A stretch of DNA of 6,736 bases from Alphaproteobacteria bacterium (GTDB lineage Bacteria; Pseudomonadota; Alphaproteobacteria; Rs-D84): NCBI GenBank assembly GCA_017650505.1, contig JAGCET010000046.1:1-6736 (forward strand), written 5' to 3'. The position numbers were made by a program, and so were the translations under genes. Positions within the stretch are counted from its first letter, which is position 1; every line of letters starts with the position of its first letter. Shown piece after piece: positions 310 to 6,736 of the stretch. The notes under the pieces are model-generated. The model worked only from the letters and a program-made list of their open reading frames with translations, searched no databases and had not been told where the DNA came from.

Positions 310-1017
310 TTATGCACTGTGGCGGTTTATTGCCTCGTGAATTTCTGATAATGTTGCAGTAGATGCAATTATTGGTTCAAAATGCACCGTTGCCGTTCCG
401 GGTATCATACGACCCTTTTTTGGCCAATACAGGCCGGTGTCGGTTCCAACCGGAATAATTGGCAACTTTAAGGTGTGTGATAAAAACATCAGACCGCGTT
501 TCAGTGCGGGGTGTTGCCCCGGTTTTACGCGTGTGCCTTCGGGAAAAATGATTAGTGTTGCGCCATTCATTATTTTTGTTGCGACCGCGTCCGCCAGTTT
601 ATTAAGGTTTGTTGCGCCACGTGCACGATTTACCGGTTGCATACCCATACGCCAAAATGACCAACCGTATATCGGAATCCATAATAATTCCCGCTTTAAT
701 ATAAAGAACGGATTTTGAATGTTGGTAACCAAAATTGCAACCTCCATCATAGACATATGTTTGGATGCAATGATTGCCTTGCCATCGGTTCGTTTGTTTT
801 CATTCGGGGTTTCGGGAATTGCCCCATCGTCGGGTTCGGGATAGAATATTTTATACCTGATTCCGCAAATAATTCGTGCCAAGAATAATACCCCGCGTGC
901 ATCCGTAATTATCATGCGGGATGTCATTTTTTTTGACACCAATCCGACCAACAAAAATGGCGACCACATCACAAAGTAAATTGACAATAAAATTTTGAAT
1001 AAGATGGTTCTAAACAT
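310..1017 (-). CDS. plsC: 1-acyl-sn-glycerol-3-phosphate acyltransferase (PlsC/LPLAT family)
   Basis: It probably transfers a fatty acyl group to lysophosphatidic acid, giving phosphatidic acid for membrane phospholipid synthesis at the inner membrane. The 235-residue length is normal for the family. A hydrophobic N-terminus (about 5-27) would anchor it. The acyltransferase blocks appear in order: block I as H87-x4-E92 (HMSMME, where HX4D is the textbook form), block II KRELLWIPIYGW at 108-119, block III FPEGTR at 158-163, and block IV around LPIIPVG at 185-191. The start ATG has AAAGGA about 8 bases upstream. It is the last gene of the leftward operon, 17 bases after the DUF218 gene. Substrate specificity cannot be read from the sequence, and a lysophospholipid or ornithine-lipid acyltransferase of the same superfamily is possible. 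Confidence 0.88.
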   Translation of the reverse strand: MFRTILFKILLSIYFVMWSPFLLVGLVSKKMTSRMIITDARGVLFLARIICGIRYKIFYPEPDDGAIPETPNENKRTDGKAIIASKHMSMMEVAILVTNIQNPFFILKRELLWIPIYGWSFWRMGMQPVNRARGATNLNKLADAVATKIMNGATLIIFPEGTRVKPGQHPALKRGLMFLSHTLKLPIIPVGTDTGLYWPKKGRMIPGTATVHFEPIIASTATLSEIHEAINRHSA

Positions 1018-1034
1018 TTATATAATCCTTTGGT

Positions 1035-1559
1035 TTATTGCATATATTGTGGACTTTCGCGTATTCCGACCAATGTTACCAAATATTTTACATATTCAAT
1101 GACCCAACGTTCCAATCGTCGCGCCGGCGGCATTTCAGACAGTGCGACCGGGCATGCCACAATTGTTGTGTACGGTAATTCGTGATGCACCAAATGTTTA
1201 GCGCGGCGAATATGGTCTTCGGTTGTGATTAAAACGATTCGGTCCAATCCCGATTTTTCTACCAATTTCCGTATGGCACGCGCGTTTTGATATGTAGATT
1301 TCGATTCGGATTCGATTGTCGCGCGATCACTGTTTATGTGCCCAGAATCTGCACCAACGCCAATTATGTATAAATCTGCATCGGGGTATTTTTCGACTTG
1401 GCGTTCGGCAAAGGGAATGCGACGAAAATCACCGGTTAAAACAAAGATGCTGTCATTTGACAATATAAAATCACAATCATTCGGGGTTGTTAACTTGAAT
1501 GCGATTCCGCCAACAACAAACAAACCTAACATTAAAAACGATGGACGCAAGAACTTCAT
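1035..1559 (-). CDS. DUF218 (YdcF/ElyC/SanA-like) membrane-anchored protein
   Basis: This is a 174-residue protein with one N-terminal membrane segment (about 7-23) followed by a DUF218 domain. Recognisable family features are DSIFVLTG (36-43), which corresponds to the usual D-x-I-x-VLGG strand and loop, an acidic/Ser motif with STYQNA (88-93) like the family's S-N-T-x-E-N-A, and TTEDHIRRA (112-120) like T-S-x-x-H-x-x-R-A. E. coli relatives SanA and ElyC affect envelope barrier function and peptidoglycan or undecaprenyl-linked precursor metabolism, but no reaction is firmly assigned. The frame stays open upstream to 1613, but that would overlap ftsX by 53 bases. ATG at 1559, one base after the ftsX stop (TAAAATG), fits translational coupling and puts the membrane segment at the N-terminus. 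No strong ribosome binding site is visible. Confidence 0.82.
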   Translation of the reverse strand: MKFLRPSFLMLGLFVVGGIAFKLTTPNDCDFILSNDSIFVLTGDFRRIPFAERQVEKYPDADLYIIGVGADSGHINSDRATIESESKSTYQNARAIRKLVEKSGLDRIVLITTEDHIRRAKHLVHHELPYTTIVACPVALSEMPPARRLERWVIEYVKYLVTLVGIRESPQYMQ

Positions 1560-1560
1560 T

Positions 1561-2400
1561 TTATTGACCGGCCAAAATCTTTTTCGTTGAACGCTTGGTG
1601 ACGAATATTGCAAAGGTGATTATTGCGATTGGCACCATTGCAATCGCCACCCATCCGCCACCCGAAATTCCCAACATAGCCATAAGGCCGACACGTGCGG
1701 ACCGTGCAACGGTTAAAATTACGCCCAACATTGGTAATGCCACGATGAATCCCGCACCGCATGCCACAATGCAAATCTTGGTGACGATGATTTGCATTTG
1801 GCGGACAACGAACGCGTCACTTGCGCCAATTTGATTTAAAATTTCCAATTCGCGTTTATGCAAAATTGCCGTATTGCGCGCAATAAATGAAATGCAAACC
1901 CCGATTGTTCCGATAATTAGCGCCAAAACAAAACCCAAAATACCAACCATTTTTAACCCCGCGGAAATGGATGGGCGCAGGGCGTCACTGTGTCGTACGA
2001 ATCGGGCAACACCGGTAAATTCCCTTTGAATTTGGGTGATATCCGATTCGGTTTTAAATTTAACCTCGAACATCTTGGGCAGGTATTTTTCCAATGCGCC
2101 GTTTCCACCACCAATCCATGGTGCCATAAGGCGGGTCATTTCGGCGGTACTAAGTTCATGGACCGATTCGAATTTATCAGAATTTGCACCGATAATCTTT
2201 TTCGCATTGCGTGTGTTGTCTTCCCCATTTACCTGGACAGAAGCGTACAGATTCCATTGGCGATTCCAACGCATAACCCCGGTCCCAATCGCCAATGATA
2301 TGCCCAATGCCATCACCGCCAAGAATGTCATAATCCCCATAACCGCGGTCATAAAAACCGATTGTTCACGAAATAATGAAAATACAAGTGGTCGTTTCAT
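1561..2400 (-). CDS. ftsX: Cell division protein FtsX (ABC-type permease subunit)
   Basis: FtsX is the membrane partner of FtsE. In characterised bacteria the complex couples ATP hydrolysis to activation of periplasmic cell-wall hydrolases at the septum, rather than to transport. The 279-residue product has the FtsX layout: a short cytoplasmic N-terminus, TM1 (about 15-40), a periplasmic domain (about 43-148), TM2 (150-173), the cytoplasmic loop HKRELEILNQIGASD (181-195) matching the family's E-I-x-I-L-x-x-x-G-A-x-D motif, TM3 (204-231) and TM4 (246-268). The frame is open to 2457, but ATG at 2400 is one base after the ftsE stop (TAATATG) and gives the expected N-terminus. The longer start would overlap ftsE by 56 bases. 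A weak TTGGAAA lies upstream inside ftsE. Confidence 0.9.
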   Translation of the reverse strand: MKRPLVFSLFREQSVFMTAVMGIMTFLAVMALGISLAIGTGVMRWNRQWNLYASVQVNGEDNTRNAKKIIGANSDKFESVHELSTAEMTRLMAPWIGGGNGALEKYLPKMFEVKFKTESDITQIQREFTGVARFVRHSDALRPSISAGLKMVGILGFVLALIIGTIGVCISFIARNTAILHKRELEILNQIGASDAFVVRQMQIIVTKICIVACGAGFIVALPMLGVILTVARSARVGLMAMLGISGGGWVAIAMVPIAIITFAIFVTKRSTKKILAGQ

Positions 2401-2401
2401 A

Positions 2402-3184
2402 TTATGCGTTTCCAATATCGTTAAATTGTTTGCTAAGTTCGGCAAAATATTCCGCATCGCCCGTGTGTAGTGCGGGTTTGCGCGCGCGTGCCGATTCGGA
2501 ATGTGCCGGACCCATAAATGTCAGTTTGTGATTTTCAACGTGCATAATTGGGAATTTATATGTTCCCATCAATTTAGAATTATGGGTCGCAATAATTATG
2601 GTTGTACCGAACATTTTGTTCATTTGAATGAACAGTTCCATCAACCGAGATGCGTTTTCATCGTCCAAATTTCCAGTTGGTTCGTCCGCCAGCATAATCG
2701 CCGGTTGCACAATAATTGCACGGGCGACCGATACACGTTGTTGCTGGCCCCCACTTAAAGTTTTTGGATTCGCGTTTGCAAATTTGCCAAGTCCCACCCA
2801 GTCCAACGTTTTGGTAACCAATTTTTTTATTTTTGCTTCGTCCACACCACGCACGCGCAGTGGCAATGCGACGTTGTCGAACACCGACATATGCGACAGC
2901 AACGAATATTCTTGGAACACAATTGCCATTTTGTGGCGCAGTTTTGTTATTTCATCGCGGGATATATTATTTGTCGGTATTCCAAAAATCTTTACCGTTC
3001 CACGACATGGTTTATGCAGTTGATATATAATGCGCAACAGTGTTGTTTTACCCGCGCCCGATGCCCCCGACAGGAAATAAAATGACCCCGCATCGATGTT
3101 AAAAGACACGTCGGTCAAGACATCCGGACTGTTGTCATATCGCACGCCTACATTGGCCAATGAAATAATAGTATTGCTTTCCAT
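2402..3184 (-). CDS. ftsE: Cell division ATP-binding protein FtsE
   Basis: This is the ABC ATPase subunit of FtsEX. From ATG 3184 the protein has 260 residues. It shows Walker A GASGAGKTT (40-48), Q-loop Q91 in the FtsE-like stretch VFQEYSLL, VFDNVALPLR (101-110), ABC signature LSGGQQQR (143-150), Walker B and D-loop IMLADEPTGNLD (163-174), and H-switch H201. The Q-loop and DNVALPL context are much more FtsE-like than LolD-like, and the adjacent ftsX settles the assignment. Residues from about 225 to 260 extend past the usual end (E. coli FtsE has 222), giving a polar, partly basic tail. Other possible starts are ATG 3193 and TTG 3220. They are disfavoured because they overlap the likely promoter and extend the N-terminus beyond the family norm. 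No clear ribosome binding site precedes any of the three. Confidence 0.92.
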   Translation of the reverse strand: MESNTIISLANVGVRYDNSPDVLTDVSFNIDAGSFYFLSGASGAGKTTLLRIIYQLHKPCRGTVKIFGIPTNNISRDEITKLRHKMAIVFQEYSLLSHMSVFDNVALPLRVRGVDEAKIKKLVTKTLDWVGLGKFANANPKTLSGGQQQRVSVARAIIVQPAIMLADEPTGNLDDENASRLMELFIQMNKMFGTTIIIATHNSKLMGTYKFPIMHVENHKLTFMGPAHSESARARKPALHTGDAEYFAELSKQFNDIGNA

Positions 3185-3191
3185 AATCGCC

Positions 3192-3220
3192 ATATTAGTA
3201 AAAAATTTTTTTATGGTCAA
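3192..3220 (-). promoter_or_regulatory. Likely sigma-70-type promoter of the ftsE operon
   Basis: On the minus strand TTGACC (3220-3215) is followed by a 17-base spacer and TAATAT (3197-3192). The -35 matches the consensus at 5 of 6 positions and the -10 at 4 of 6. The spacer contains the tract A7T6, which should be intrinsically bent. Transcription would start near 3184-3186, practically on the A of the ATG chosen for ftsE, which suggests a leaderless or near-leaderless mRNA. The start site is inferred. Confidence 0.45.
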
Positions 3221-3293: not shown

Positions 3294-4169
3294 ATGAAAA
3301 AAATCATAGTAAGTCTTGTTGCATTGTCTGCGATAGTGCCGGCGTTTGCCGATGGCGATTGCGGATGCAAATCAAAAAATTGCAAACCGAAAAAGGTTCG
3401 TGTTGTGTACGTTGGCGCGCCGTCAGATGATGCGGCTACGTATGAAAGTACGGTATTGTCATCGGAACCGCAATACGAAACCCAAGAAATCACAGTGTCT
3501 GAGGCGACAAAGTTATATGAACCGGTTGTTGAACCGGCGCCACGTGTGCGTAAATCATCGCGGTCGGATTCTGATTGGTACCTTGGGGGGCGCATTGGCG
3601 TAGATTTGTTGTCGTGGAAAAATAAATATACTGCGACACCGGCGGCGGCGATTGCAGACCCGGACTTTGATCACGACAATTATGTCTTTGAACCGGTATT
3701 TGGTGGGGATTTGTTCGTTGGGTATCATTTCAGTCCTGCGATGCGTGGCGACGTAGAACTTGGGTACATGACGCAGTTCGAAGATTCAGACAATGGTGTT
3801 TCGTTCAAGATGTCAACGTTCTATACGACGTTCAACGCGTATTACGATTTCACAAATCATTTCTATTTGGGGGCGGGCCTTGGGTTTGCGTTCCCAAAGA
3901 TAAATGTTGATTTTGAATATTTTGCGCCGGGTTCGAACAGTGAGACCAAATTGTCACTGATGTGGGCGGCAATGGCGGGATATACATACGACCTGTCGGA
4001 TCGTGTTATGTTTGATTTCCGCTATCGTCTATCGGGCTTCTGGGGACCCGAGATGACACGTGGCGTATCGGGATTCAATGTTACGGGCACTCCGTTGAAT
4101 GCGTTGACGACCAAGGTTGGATTCGTCTTGGATAATCAGTTCTCGGTTGGTCTGCGTTACGAATTTTAA
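3294..4169 (+). CDS. Outer-membrane beta-barrel protein with Cys-containing N-terminal extension
   Basis: The 291-residue protein begins with a clear Sec signal peptide (1-19, cleavage after AFA). The mature N-terminus carries a small Cys cluster, CGCKSKNC, with C23, C25 and C30. No lipobox is present, so it is not a lipoprotein. A polar, Glu/Pro/Ser-rich linker (about 35-92) leads to a domain from W95 to the C-terminus made of alternating amphipathic strands rich in Gly and aromatics (YLGGRIGVDL, FYLGAGLGFAFP, MFDFRYRLSGFW, FSVGLRYEF). It ends in Phe, the usual outer-membrane insertion signal. This fits the small porin/OmpA-barrel class of about eight strands. The function is not identifiable; surface structural protein, adhesin or anchor are possible. 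It has its own promoter and AAGGA site and is followed 18 bases later by a secreted fibre-like gene, so the two are probably co-transcribed. Confidence 0.8.
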   Translation: MKKIIVSLVALSAIVPAFADGDCGCKSKNCKPKKVRVVYVGAPSDDAATYESTVLSSEPQYETQEITVSEATKLYEPVVEPAPRVRKSSRSDSDWYLGGRIGVDLLSWKNKYTATPAAAIADPDFDHDNYVFEPVFGGDLFVGYHFSPAMRGDVELGYMTQFEDSDNGVSFKMSTFYTTFNAYYDFTNHFYLGAGLGFAFPKINVDFEYFAPGSNSETKLSLMWAAMAGYTYDLSDRVMFDFRYRLSGFWGPEMTRGVSGFNVTGTPLNALTTKVGFVLDNQFSVGLRYEF

Positions 4170-4187: not shown

Positions 4188-5054
4188 ATGAGAGAGAATG
4201 TAAAAACATCATTGTTTGCGGTTGTGGCCGTGGCGGTTATGACCAGTGGTGCGATTGCGGCGCCGTCTGTGCGTGGCATTGGTGCCGGTGATGCGTCGAC
4301 TGCGGCGATTGGTTCGTCGGCGCGTTCTGGTTCTCTGCGGACGGGTGCATTGGTTGGTGCGATATCGTCAAAGTCTCAAACCCCGGTTCCGATGTTATCG
4401 GGCACTCGTGTTGGCGGTTCGACCCCGGTGCGTACGGTGACGACGCCACGTCTATCGATTGGGAAATACATTGGTGCACCCGCGTCCATAAGTACGTCTG
4501 GTGGTGGTGGCACAGGTTGTTGCGATGGGCTGAACGAACGCATCACGCAACTGGAGCGCGAGATTATTGAAAAACAAGATATCCTGCACGATTCCGAATA
4601 TATTTACATAGATGAATCCACGCACGAAATTATGTTGGATATTGAAAGCATCCTTGAATTGATAGGTGATGGCAGTGGCGGCGATGGCACGCCGGGTGCC
4701 GATGGTACCGACGGTCGTGAAGTAGAAATGGGTACGAATAGCACTGGTTTGTTGTGGCGCTATGTCGGTGAACCGGACAGTGCATGGCGTTTGTTGATAT
4801 CGTGGGCCGATTTGTCGTCCAACCTTGAAATACCCGATATAGATTTGTCGGGCAAGGTTGACATTGATCAAAGTCAAAATGCCCAGGCCGGCGATGACGT
4901 TTTGATATTGAATGCGAATAACCAGGTTGTCACGGGAAATTTGGATGATAAGTATGTCAAGATTCAACAATCATTACCAAGTCAGCATTATCAGGTTATG
5001 CAACTTGATGAAAATCTGCGTGTTGTGCCGGGGTTAAAGATCTGGGCGGAATAG
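4188..5054 (+). CDS. Secreted modular fibre-like protein (shorter paralogue)
   Basis: I do not recognise a named family for the full protein of 288 residues. A signal peptide (1-24, cleavage after AIA) is followed by a low-complexity Ser/Thr/Gly/Val region with RSGSLRTGA (46-54), PRLSIGKYIG (87-96), a Gly run and a Cys pair C111-C112. A short coiled coil follows (about 115-131, LNERITQLERE). Next come KQDILHDSEYI (129-139), a short collagen-like stretch GDGTPGADGTDG (165-176), the module DGREVE...WRYVG...W..LISW (175-206), and two hairpin-like repeats ending near 250 and 282. Collagen-like stretches joined to DGREVE/WRYVG modules are common in tailed-phage fibres and bacterial collagen-like proteins. 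AAAAGG lies 9 bases before the ATG, and the gene follows the barrel gene by 18 bases. Likely exported and surface-associated; no anchor is visible. Confidence 0.7.
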   Translation: MRENVKTSLFAVVAVAVMTSGAIAAPSVRGIGAGDASTAAIGSSARSGSLRTGALVGAISSKSQTPVPMLSGTRVGGSTPVRTVTTPRLSIGKYIGAPASISTSGGGGTGCCDGLNERITQLEREIIEKQDILHDSEYIYIDESTHEIMLDIESILELIGDGSGGDGTPGADGTDGREVEMGTNSTGLLWRYVGEPDSAWRLLISWADLSSNLEIPDIDLSGKVDIDQSQNAQAGDDVLILNANNQVVTGNLDDKYVKIQQSLPSQHYQVMQLDENLRVVPGLKIWAE

Positions 5055-5106
5055 GGTGGAAATCTGGGGAGTATGAAGAAAATCAGAAGAAAGTGAAAAA
5101 AGTATT

Positions 5107-5134
5107 TTGGGAAGGGTTCAAATTGTGATATAAT
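5107..5134 (+). promoter_or_regulatory. Extended -10 promoter of the larger fibre-like gene
   Basis: A perfect TATAAT (5129-5134) is preceded by TGTGA, giving an extended -10 almost identical to that of the barrel gene (TGTGATATAAT against TGTGATATACT). A weaker TTGGGA (5107-5112) sits 16 bases upstream as -35. The start site would be near 5141, with a leader of about 20 bases. No terminator hairpin is seen between the preceding gene (stop at 5054) and this promoter, so read-through from the upstream operon is also possible. Confidence 0.65.
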
Positions 5135-5160
5135 GTCTAACAACGGGGAAAGTGAGAGAG

Positions 5161-6510
5161 ATGAGCAAGGGTTTCGGTACATCTTTATTGGCTATTATGA
5201 CGGTTGCGGCGTTTTGCAGTGATGCGTTCGCGGTGGCGTCTGTTCGCACTATTGGTGGTGCGGGCACATACGCATCGGCATCTGCGGCGGCGGCCGACGG
5301 TTCAAATCGTGCCGGGTCATTACGCACGGGTGGTTTTGTACGTCCGGGTACGTCTGTATCGACAACTGGTGTTGGTTCGGCGGGCGCGGCGGGTGTTGCG
5401 ACGGTTCAGCCAAAGGTGTCAACGTCAACATCGGGTTCTGTATCTGGTGCGGCGACCACGTCGGGTGGTTCGGTATCGACGGGTGGCGCGGGCATATCGG
5501 GGCGCAGTGCGTCTATGCCACGTCTGTCGATTGGCAAGTATATTGGCACGCCGGTATCGGTCAGTACACATGGCCCATCGAACAACGATTTAGATTTGCG
5601 CATCGACCGTTTGGAACGCGACGTATCTGAATTGCAAGAAAACAAGCAAGATATGTTAAGCGGAACGGAATACATCACGGTTGACCAAGATAATAACGAA
5701 GTCATTTTGGAACTTGAAGCGGTGCGCGAGGCATTGGCATTGCAAGACGGTCGCGAAATAGAGGCCGACGCCGATAACGACACGGGTGTTTTGGTGCGTT
5801 ATATTCCGCGTGAAGGCGAACCAGAAACGGAGTGGGAAACGCTGATTACATGGGAAGAATTGCGCAATCGGTTAAGCCTTGGCGAAATGAACGACGCCAT
5901 CACGGCAAGCATTAACGATTTAAGTGCCGAAATTGCCAAGAAATTGGACAAATTGGCGGGGGCCGATAAATCCGGTCGTGTTATGACGGTTGATACCGAT
6001 GGCTACATAAAGCCGGGCGTGATAATTGCGGATGAATTGAATGCCAAATTGGATAACACCGTTGATTTAGATACGAATCCAGATGCCCCGGGCAAAGCGG
6101 TTATCGTGGATGACGAAGGTAATTTGGTACCAACGGGCGATTTCTATACACGCGACGAAGTCGATAGTATCATAAATGAATATGGCATCGACAATTTGGG
6201 CGCATTGGCATACAAAGATCAGATAAAGGACGAAGATATCGCATCCGACGCGGCGATTGCGCGTTCGAAATTGGCGGGCGATATTTCGGACATATTGAAT
6301 TGGATTGAATGGTGGAAGCAGAATGCACCGACGGACGGCAAATATGTGTTGTCCGTCGATGAAAACGGCAACAAGCAATGGTTCCGCGTGGTGGTTGATG
6401 CCGAAGACGGCGGACGCAGTGCCGACACCGATTCAAACAATGCGAATTCTAACACGGGCACATCATATAACAGCACCCCATCGGGTGACGACGATAGTGA
6501 CGCGGGTTAG
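5161..6510 (+). CDS. Secreted modular fibre-like protein (larger paralogue)
   Basis: A 449-residue relative of the preceding gene. Order: signal peptide (1-24, cleavage after AFA), Ala/Ser/Thr/Gly-rich stalk (about 35-115) with SLRTGG (53-58), PRLSIGKYIG (120-129), coiled coil (about 144-163), KQDMLSGTEYI (162-172), and DGREIE...W..LITWEEL (196-234). A second helical stretch follows (about 244-266). Three repeats of the form G(K/R)xxx(V)VDxxG start near 272, 311 and 393. A phage-fibre-like segment NLGALAYKD...DIASDAAIARSKL occupies 345-371, and an acidic Asn/Ser/Asp-rich tail 416-449. No C-terminal anchor or barrel is present. An in-frame GTG at 5152 would add MRE, which matches the MRE start of the paralogue, but GGGGA (5145-5148 plus A) is only two bases from it and 11 from ATG 5161, so ATG is preferred. 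Function unknown; surface fibre or adhesin is the best guess. Confidence 0.7.
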   Translation: MSKGFGTSLLAIMTVAAFCSDAFAVASVRTIGGAGTYASASAAAADGSNRAGSLRTGGFVRPGTSVSTTGVGSAGAAGVATVQPKVSTSTSGSVSGAATTSGGSVSTGGAGISGRSASMPRLSIGKYIGTPVSVSTHGPSNNDLDLRIDRLERDVSELQENKQDMLSGTEYITVDQDNNEVILELEAVREALALQDGREIEADADNDTGVLVRYIPREGEPETEWETLITWEELRNRLSLGEMNDAITASINDLSAEIAKKLDKLAGADKSGRVMTVDTDGYIKPGVIIADELNAKLDNTVDLDTNPDAPGKAVIVDDEGNLVPTGDFYTRDEVDSIINEYGIDNLGALAYKDQIKDEDIASDAAIARSKLAGDISDILNWIEWWKQNAPTDGKYVLSVDENGNKQWFRVVVDAEDGGRSADTDSNNANSNTGTSYNSTPSGDDDSDAG

Positions 6511-6656: not shown

Positions 6657-6736
6657 ATGACCATAAAAATTAAAAACTTTTGCTTTGTCGGGATTGCCGC
6701 AGCAATGCTGAGCGCAACCGCCGCAAATGCAGCACA
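6657..6736 (+). CDS. Exported protein, 5' end only (truncated by the window edge)
   Basis: ATG at 6657 is preceded by AAGGA with about 6-7 bases spacing. The 26 visible codons encode a typical Sec signal peptide: a basic n-region MTIKIKNF, a hydrophobic core, and ATAANA or ANAA as a signal-peptidase I site. Nothing of the mature protein is visible. By position it could be a third member of the fibre-like cluster, but the N-terminus does not share the MRE start of the other two, so an unrelated envelope protein is equally possible. Confidence 0.7.
   Translation, partial: MTIKIKNFCFVGIAAAMLSATAANAA

Follow-up and report, generated by a model that had tools for sequence, protein, structure and literature searches.

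A putative barrel-fibre gene unit encoding exported, probably trimeric proteins in an order of small-genome Alphaproteobacteria

Two neighbouring genes in a 6,736-nucleotide stretch of alphaproteobacterial DNA (the window) encode proteins that are built of the same parts and begin like exported proteins, and together they raise the question of what such a pair is for. Do the two genes belong to the bacterium or to a phage? Where do their modules have relatives? Do the proteins act alone or with a partner? How would they be held on the cell, and what would they do there? The gene immediately upstream, which encodes an outer-membrane barrel, has proved to be the main point. The features discussed below are collected in Table 1.

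Table 1. Positions of the fibre genes, their modules and neighbouring genes in the window.
Feature	Position	Strand	Remarks
FtsX-like, DUF218 and acyltransferase genes	310-2457	-	Conserved neighbours, context
FtsE-like ABC ATPase	2402-3220	-	Divergent conserved neighbour; context, outside the fibre unit
P0003, outer-membrane beta-barrel	3294-4169	+	291 aa; PF13505 41.2 bits, cut-off 28.7
P0001, short fibre paralogue	4188-5054	+	288 aa
P0001 DGRE...WRYVG...W..L module	4698-4847	+	24.8 bits against the phage-module HMM
P0002, full-length fibre	5152-6510	+	452 aa; GTG start 5152 or ATG 5161
P0002 DGREIE module, insertion before second W	5734-5883	+	11.0 bits, weak, against the phage-module HMM
Third secreted gene, start only	6657-6736	+	MTIKIKNFCFVGIAAAMLSATAANAA...; cut by the window end

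P0001 consists of a signal peptide, a stalk, the segment PRLSIGKYIG (residues 87-96), a coil containing RITQLE, the motif KQDIL, a DGREVE module (at residue 175) and two hairpins. P0002 has the same parts, with PRLSIGKYIG at residues 123-132, KQDML for KQDIL and DGREIE at residue 199, and adds hairpin repeats, an LGALAYKDQV segment, a C-terminal helix-hairpin YVLSVDENGNKQWFRV and an acidic/Asn tail; the C-terminal cap, LGxLAYKDxV...YVLSVDxxGNxxWF, is missing from P0001. SLRTG and EYI occur in both proteins, and Ser, Thr and Gly make up 48% of the stalk in P0001 and 53% in P0002. Every part that a sequence-only reading had described as shared by the two genes is thus present and in order, and BLASTP aligns the proteins at 32% identity over 323 columns with an E-value of 3e-33, so that their likeness is not due to chance. 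That reading had also taken both to be exported, with which the hydrophobic N-terminus followed by AxA in each protein agrees, the signal peptides being called by eye and with a hydropathy window rather than with a predictor. An in-frame ATG lies three codons past the GTG start of P0002, and the database copy of the protein (P0035) has 449 aa. The parts keep their order in all 28 sequences of the fully read alignment. Both ends of the full-length aligned members are conserved, with 23 invariant columns up to P0002 residue 234 and, towards the C-terminus, columns at 323-411 that hardly vary, and the middle is variable.

No known family could be assigned to either protein as a whole, as the sequence-only reading had supposed. 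Pfam and NCBIfam gave no model at cut-off for P0001 or P0002 and the PHROGs none at E<=0.01 (best phrog_3556, E 0.011), and the profile searches that had been suggested as a check assigned neither of them to an established family. Ribosomal L13, CR4_N and phrog_3556 were weak matches only and were rejected as families of the two proteins. A likeness to bacterial collagen-like surface proteins (PF01391) had been suggested and has to be given up for these two proteins, in which Pfam finds no collagen match; the module-sharing proteins P0032 and L026 do carry collagen stretches.

The conserved N-terminal part includes a short coil between PRLSIGKYIG and KQ. Here all 36 aligned members, P0001 and P0002 included, have the motif R-hxxhE, against 0.4 expected from the shuffled stretch; PMC3653964 defines it as a trimerization motif, and under the strict residue list from that source it is found in 35 of the 36, the exception being P0037 with Ala at the second position. 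Because the sequences are related, this counts as one conserved motif and not as 36 events. Seven extra R-hxxhE matches lie beyond the coil stretch in the same 36 proteins. The fibre proteins are probably homotrimers joined through this short coiled coil, as the motif suggests. An AlphaFold model of the P0002 monomer (mean pLDDT 58.5) contains only local order, namely the coil at 144-169, strands around the DGRE module and the C-terminal helix-hairpin; with the low confidence that this score implies, it agrees with the earlier expectation that the protein is not one monomeric globular fold. Foldseek with this model returned nothing at E <= 0.001. A PDB sequence search with family alignment A1 gave five matches (best E 0.13), of which one was a flavin oxidoreductase and the other four, to designed proteins and miniproteins, fell on the coil.

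A phage-fibre-like build had been proposed for the whole modular set; it stands for one of the modules, DGRE. The metagenome protein P0016, which has five DGRE modules, matched 23 phage records, several of which carry a tail fibre or tail assembly annotation, and had no match in a PDB sequence search; this protein and P0031-P0033 have only the DGRE module in common with P0001. A PHROG scan of the 36 aligned members (A2) found phrog_19976 in 11 of them, with a best E of 1.6e-4, and none for P0002. These matches are suggestive rather than decisive, and the DGRE module was therefore compared by itself. In hhalign, 13 family modules (A5, which left out the module of L001, with L010, L014 and L015 having none by the motif used) aligned to seven modules from four phages (A6) with a probability of 98.1% and an E of 8.6e-14 over 39 columns, the phage modules being favourable examples because they were picked for resemblance to P0016. 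Against the phage-module HMM, 2000 shuffled family modules scored 8.3 bits at most (compare Table 1). In the reverse test the seven phage modules scored 14.2-34.0 bits; shuffled phage modules, 2000 of them, reached 14.6 at best, and the weakest phage module (the second of L101) is therefore not separated from chance. By these profile comparisons the DGRE module is related to phage tail modules. The description of the family as a domesticated fibre may apply to this module at most.

How widely are such proteins distributed? Protein searches with P0001 and P0002 gave 32 and 48 matches, respectively, self included (as P0035 for P0002). A pattern scan of species genomes gave 18 matches, of which 15 were relatives, found in Alphaproteobacteria or 'proteobacterium' MAGs; their record titles name the rumen or reticulum in 6 of the 15 and red deer in 2, the others giving no body site. 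The order to which one relative belongs has the fibre family in 120 of its 201 genomes (E <= 1e-10). In a sample of the class, where no more than four candidates were scored in each genome, it was found in 4 of 385 genomes (E <= 1e-5; G005, G130, G139 and G170), and because all four belong to that same order, the family looks order-specific at this search sensitivity. Genomes of the fibre-bearing order measure 0.5-1.1 Mb, and citrate synthase was found in 0 of 59 of them and in 13 of 14 control genomes. The order Rs-D84 / Candidatus Enterousia has been described as partner-dependent, with small genomes and no citrate synthase (PMC12306168), and the fibre-bearing order fits that description in genome size, in the gut origin that several record titles give and in the absence of the enzyme. 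The paralogue count that had been suggested as a check bears out a multigene family: a profile of the N-terminal module found it 43 times across 15 genomes, between one and six times in each, where 14 of the 16 rows of the profile (A3) come from the searched genomes and match by construction. The SVR...RAGSLR part also occurs in further secreted proteins of the same genomes, on different bodies.

The gene upstream of the pair, P0003, encodes a signal peptide, about 70 disordered N-terminal residues, an 8-stranded barrel (95-290) and a C-terminal RYEF. In its structural model the barrel blocks have pLDDT values of 74-98 and residues 16-67 lie below 50, and the best solved matches in Foldseek include OmpA (E 1.6e-8), NspA, Ail and OprG. 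The eight strands, the signal peptide and the C-terminal aromatic residue that characterise the OmpA type are all present. As modelled, P0003 is an 8-stranded outer-membrane barrel of the OmpA/NspA/Ail type. The rickettsial adhesin Adr was also considered for P0003 and rejected (NF052636, 19.7 bits against a cut-off of 210).

Conservation of the gene order was counted in 110 of the 120 fibre-positive genomes, with one N-terminal match each and second matches left out; G044, G053, G070, G089, G100, G116, G160, G172, G177 and G193, with no listed near-N-terminal match, are omitted. The barrel gene lies directly upstream of the best N-terminal fibre match, on the same contig and strand, in 104 of these 110 genomes. 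The best fibre match of G119 is on another contig and its second-best adjoins the barrel, and in G014, G057 and G040 the barrel stands beside another protein with the N-terminal module, which brings the genomes with a barrel beside some N-terminal-module protein to 108 of 110. As for the other two, G092 has fibre and barrel within one same-strand cluster with the barrel last, and in G012 the contig begins 255 nt before the fibre match. The matched stretches of barrel and fibre are 21-263 nt apart, with a median of 70 (105 pairs, G119 by its second-best match). A 183-aa member in G040 amounts to about the N-terminal module alone, yet it still adjoins the barrel. Among the first 15 related loci, 13 have the barrel immediately ahead of the fibre; L012 lies at the start of its contig, and L014 has no barrel within 10 kb. 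The barrel was found in 157 of the 201 genomes of the order and the fibre in 120 (E <= 1e-10), so that the barrel may also serve other purposes, or else some fibres may be missed by the profile; barrel matches in genomes lacking a fibre match were partly left out of the pairing comparison.

Judged by gene order, P0003, P0001 and P0002 are one unit, and the barrel-fibre pair is kept across the order. This order-wide unit is what the analysis adds, and it does not figure in the sequence-only reading. Because nearly all relatives examined have the fibre gene right behind the barrel gene, the pair may represent a hitherto undescribed attachment system. Adjacency of genes alone does not prove that barrel and fibre touch.

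The surroundings of the unit are conserved as well. Acyltransferase, DUF218, FtsX and FtsE genes are kept as a neighbourhood in 13 of the 15 loci, the call of FtsX being based on a sub-cut-off Pfam match and on position. On the other side, the open reading frame at 6657 begins like the following genes of related loci (MKxKVKGLVFVGFAAA), where its relatives are fibre-like proteins with VTSKxYVD. Of the first 15 loci, at least 11 have a further secreted protein with such a start after the fibre; nine of these proteins, which form the profile set, have VTSK/TSL-xYxx stretches and most end in ...CALV...W. When four following proteins were scanned against the PHROGs, L088 (562 aa) matched a tail-fibre family at 1.2e-9 and the other three matched none at 0.001.

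What would the unit do? Starting from what can be read in the sequence, that is, the export signal, the order of parts, the barrel fold, the pairing and the relatedness of the DGRE module, we favour, with modest confidence, that the proteins are lineage-specific, exported, probably homotrimeric surface fibres that work with an OmpA-type barrel, probably for attachment. The trimer, surface display, anchoring, barrel contact and binding function, which we infer, would come about as follows: the export signal would take the fibre out of the cytoplasm, and three chains would join through the R-hxxhE coil. The conserved N-terminal part (SVR...RAGSLR...PRLSIGKYIG) would fasten the fibre to the outer membrane, where the barrel would serve as socket or helper. 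Then the middle, variable in length, would set the reach of the fibre, and the capped C-terminal far end would face outward and bind a partner cell, a host ciliate, mucus or a plant surface. A more specific version, which we regard as tentative and rather doubtful, proposes that trimeric fibres, made partly of phage-tail modules and with interchangeable bodies, dock by their N-terminal part in the 8-stranded barrel, a socket supplied in trans, and grip other cells.

The strongest rival is that the proteins never leave the periplasm and that the trimeric fibres tether the barrel to peptidoglycan or to the inner membrane, stabilising the envelope of a cell with a reduced genome. Neither a lipobox (by eye) nor a YadA anchor (Pfam) was found in P0001 or P0002. 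A barrel of eight strands does not have the width to let a fibre through. A Sec-exported fibre would therefore need some other way across the outer membrane, which weighs against surface display, and a Sec-type signal with no known outer-membrane export route is what a periplasmic tether would have. The termini of OmpA-type barrels are periplasmic, which counts for the tether too, as do the conservation of both fibre ends and, in several loci, a gene for a Pal-like OmpA-domain lipoprotein (PF00691 in L088) that lies with FtsE/FtsX divergently beside the unit. However, the open frames of the family range from about 200 to 1,468 aa among those listed, some of them cut by contig ends, and because of this span a fibre fits better than a spacer of fixed length, bodies of such different lengths being hard to fit into a fixed gap. 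The phage-tail-related module and the presence of several such proteins per genome also speak against a tether, and the disordered N-terminal stretch of the barrel is not a general tether point, because it is missing in 9 of 22 aligned barrels. We consider the periplasmic tether unlikely. A separate point weighs against an attachment fibre itself: its C-terminal cap is conserved, unlike binding tips, which are often variable.

Does the presence of two fibre genes have a meaning of its own? They might be the outcome of a recent, plain tandem duplication of one gene, and the two are indeed adjacent, made of the same parts and 32% identical. The copies do not group in trees, however. In trees that cover the sequence from the N-terminal part up to and including the DGRE module, P0002 falls with P0036, P0037 and P0039 (support 99/91 and 98/92) and P0001 forms a long branch away from it, in a smaller tree beside P0014 and near P0007 and P0010 (weak, 90/48). 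Forcing P0001 and P0002 together costs 15.4 log units and is weakly rejected (p-AU 0.04). By eye, P0001 has the short 'GTNxxGLLWRYVG' form of P0014, P0007 and P0010, and P0002 has the insertion form. All of the first 15 related loci have one family member each in the stretch examined (HMM, E <= 1e-5), and the window has two; a second fibre copy lies three genes on in L088 and L089. The earlier proposal of a family expanded by duplication thus holds insofar as paralogues exist, and it is doubtful for this pair, whose recent duplication from one gene without functional meaning we take to be improbable. An older duplication or a transfer may have given rise to the pair, whose origin is unsure because P0001 is a long branch. 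Within the favoured explanation of surface fibres, P0001 would on balance be a divergent second fibre without the C-terminal cap.

Still less probable is that the proteins are released into a matrix or form a loose, perhaps glycosylated coat instead of a barrel-bound fibre. The long Ser/Thr/Gly stalk and the failure to find a covalent anchor would suit such a coat, but the tight pairing with the barrel gene would not, nor would the strong conservation of the N-terminal part, which suggests a fixed binding partner. Finally, that these are phage or prophage structural genes from a tail fibre cassette is very improbable: the DGRE module is common to tail proteins and PHROG tail families match relatives, but the proteins have signal peptides, the acyltransferase-DUF218-FtsX-FtsE neighbours are bacterial and are kept in 13/15 loci, no neighbour attracted notice as a phage gene, and no relative appeared among IMG/VR viral contigs (6 and 7 pattern stretches when searched with P0001 and alignment A1) or in 50,697 phage records searched by tblastn with P0001 and P0002, as expected from the earlier view that they are genes of the cell.

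The surface-fibre reading can be compared with several known systems. Phage tail proteins (phrog_19976; Stenotrophomonas phages Suzuki and AXL_1, Erwinia phage S6, Pantoea phage AAM22) likewise have the DGRE...W.Y.G...W..L module among fibre-type repeats, and the presumed trimeric build is also that of phage tail fibres; unlike those, the present proteins have a signal peptide and the SVR/RAGSLR/PRLSIGKYIG part, and they are encoded together with a barrel in a bacterial unit that is conserved. Trimeric autotransporter adhesins (YadA type, type Vc) resemble them in being exported and in having a short trimer-type coiled coil, here predicted, but P0001 and P0002 have no YadA_anchor (Pfam, E<=1) and the 8-stranded barrel is encoded by a separate gene. 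Autotransporters in general carry barrel and fibre in one chain, whereas here they are separate genes. True YadA_anchor proteins were found in 5 of 10 tested genomes of the fibre-bearing kind, and the lineage is therefore able to make a YadA anchor. P0003 itself is like the small barrels of the OmpA/OmpX/NspA/Ail type in its fold, with a weak NCBIfam match to rickettsial Adr, and unlike them in being paired with a fibre gene. A limited literature search found no description of the fibre family or of the barrel-fibre unit.

If the proposal is true, a barrel socket acting in trans would be a route of display separate from that of autotransporters, and it would be found in small-genome, partner-dependent gut Alphaproteobacteria. 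The DGRE module would be one more case of a phage-tail module inside a stable bacterial family of exported proteins. The putative barrel-fibre unit, kept across the order, would provide concrete genes for an order that probably depends on partners.

The N-terminal part of the fibre family (SVR...RAGSLR...PRLSIGKYIG) is found in secreted proteins of very different length. A minimal one, from genome G040, extends scarcely beyond this module and carries RLSVGKYLH, and the same part occurs together with Cys-rich repeats in two very large ones. The third secreted gene of the barrel-fibre unit is cut by the window end, and its relatives are fibre-like proteins with VTSKxYVD.

In several genomes of the order, a gene for a Pal-like lipoprotein lies between the genes for FtsE and the barrel, on the other strand than the barrel gene; it is missing from this position in the window. 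The OmpA domain (PF00691) was tested on L088 only. Proteins with YadA_anchor (trimeric autotransporters; open frames of 526-1827 aa) are encoded in half of the small genomes tested (5/10), and two adjacent genes at L001 7039-8757 may be akin to the DarT/DarG (macro-domain) toxin-antitoxin pair, which they resemble by eye.

Features in the window and in stretches of related genomes (L-numbers)
Feature	Location	Remarks
Third secreted gene	window 6657-6736	start 6657
Minimal barrel-fibre version	L106 1860-3151	barrel, 11-nt gap, 183-aa protein
Very large secreted protein	L028 2847-6293	1148 aa
Very large secreted protein	L034 25-4704	1559 aa
YadA_anchor proteins	L102 3468-8945; L103 1080-2828; further places	
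Pal-like lipoprotein	L088 1667-2065	opposite to barrel; PF00691
Pal-like lipoprotein	L089 7411-7809	opposite to barrel
Pal-like lipoprotein	L091 863-1267	opposite to barrel
Pal-like lipoprotein	L092, L093, L094, L097	opposite to barrel
Cys-Cys pair	window 4518-4523	P0001 residues 111-112

The short fibre paralogue P0001 has a Cys-Cys pair immediately N-terminal to its coiled coil, which is absent from the remaining 35 coil stretches compared. This pair could cross-link the putative trimer.
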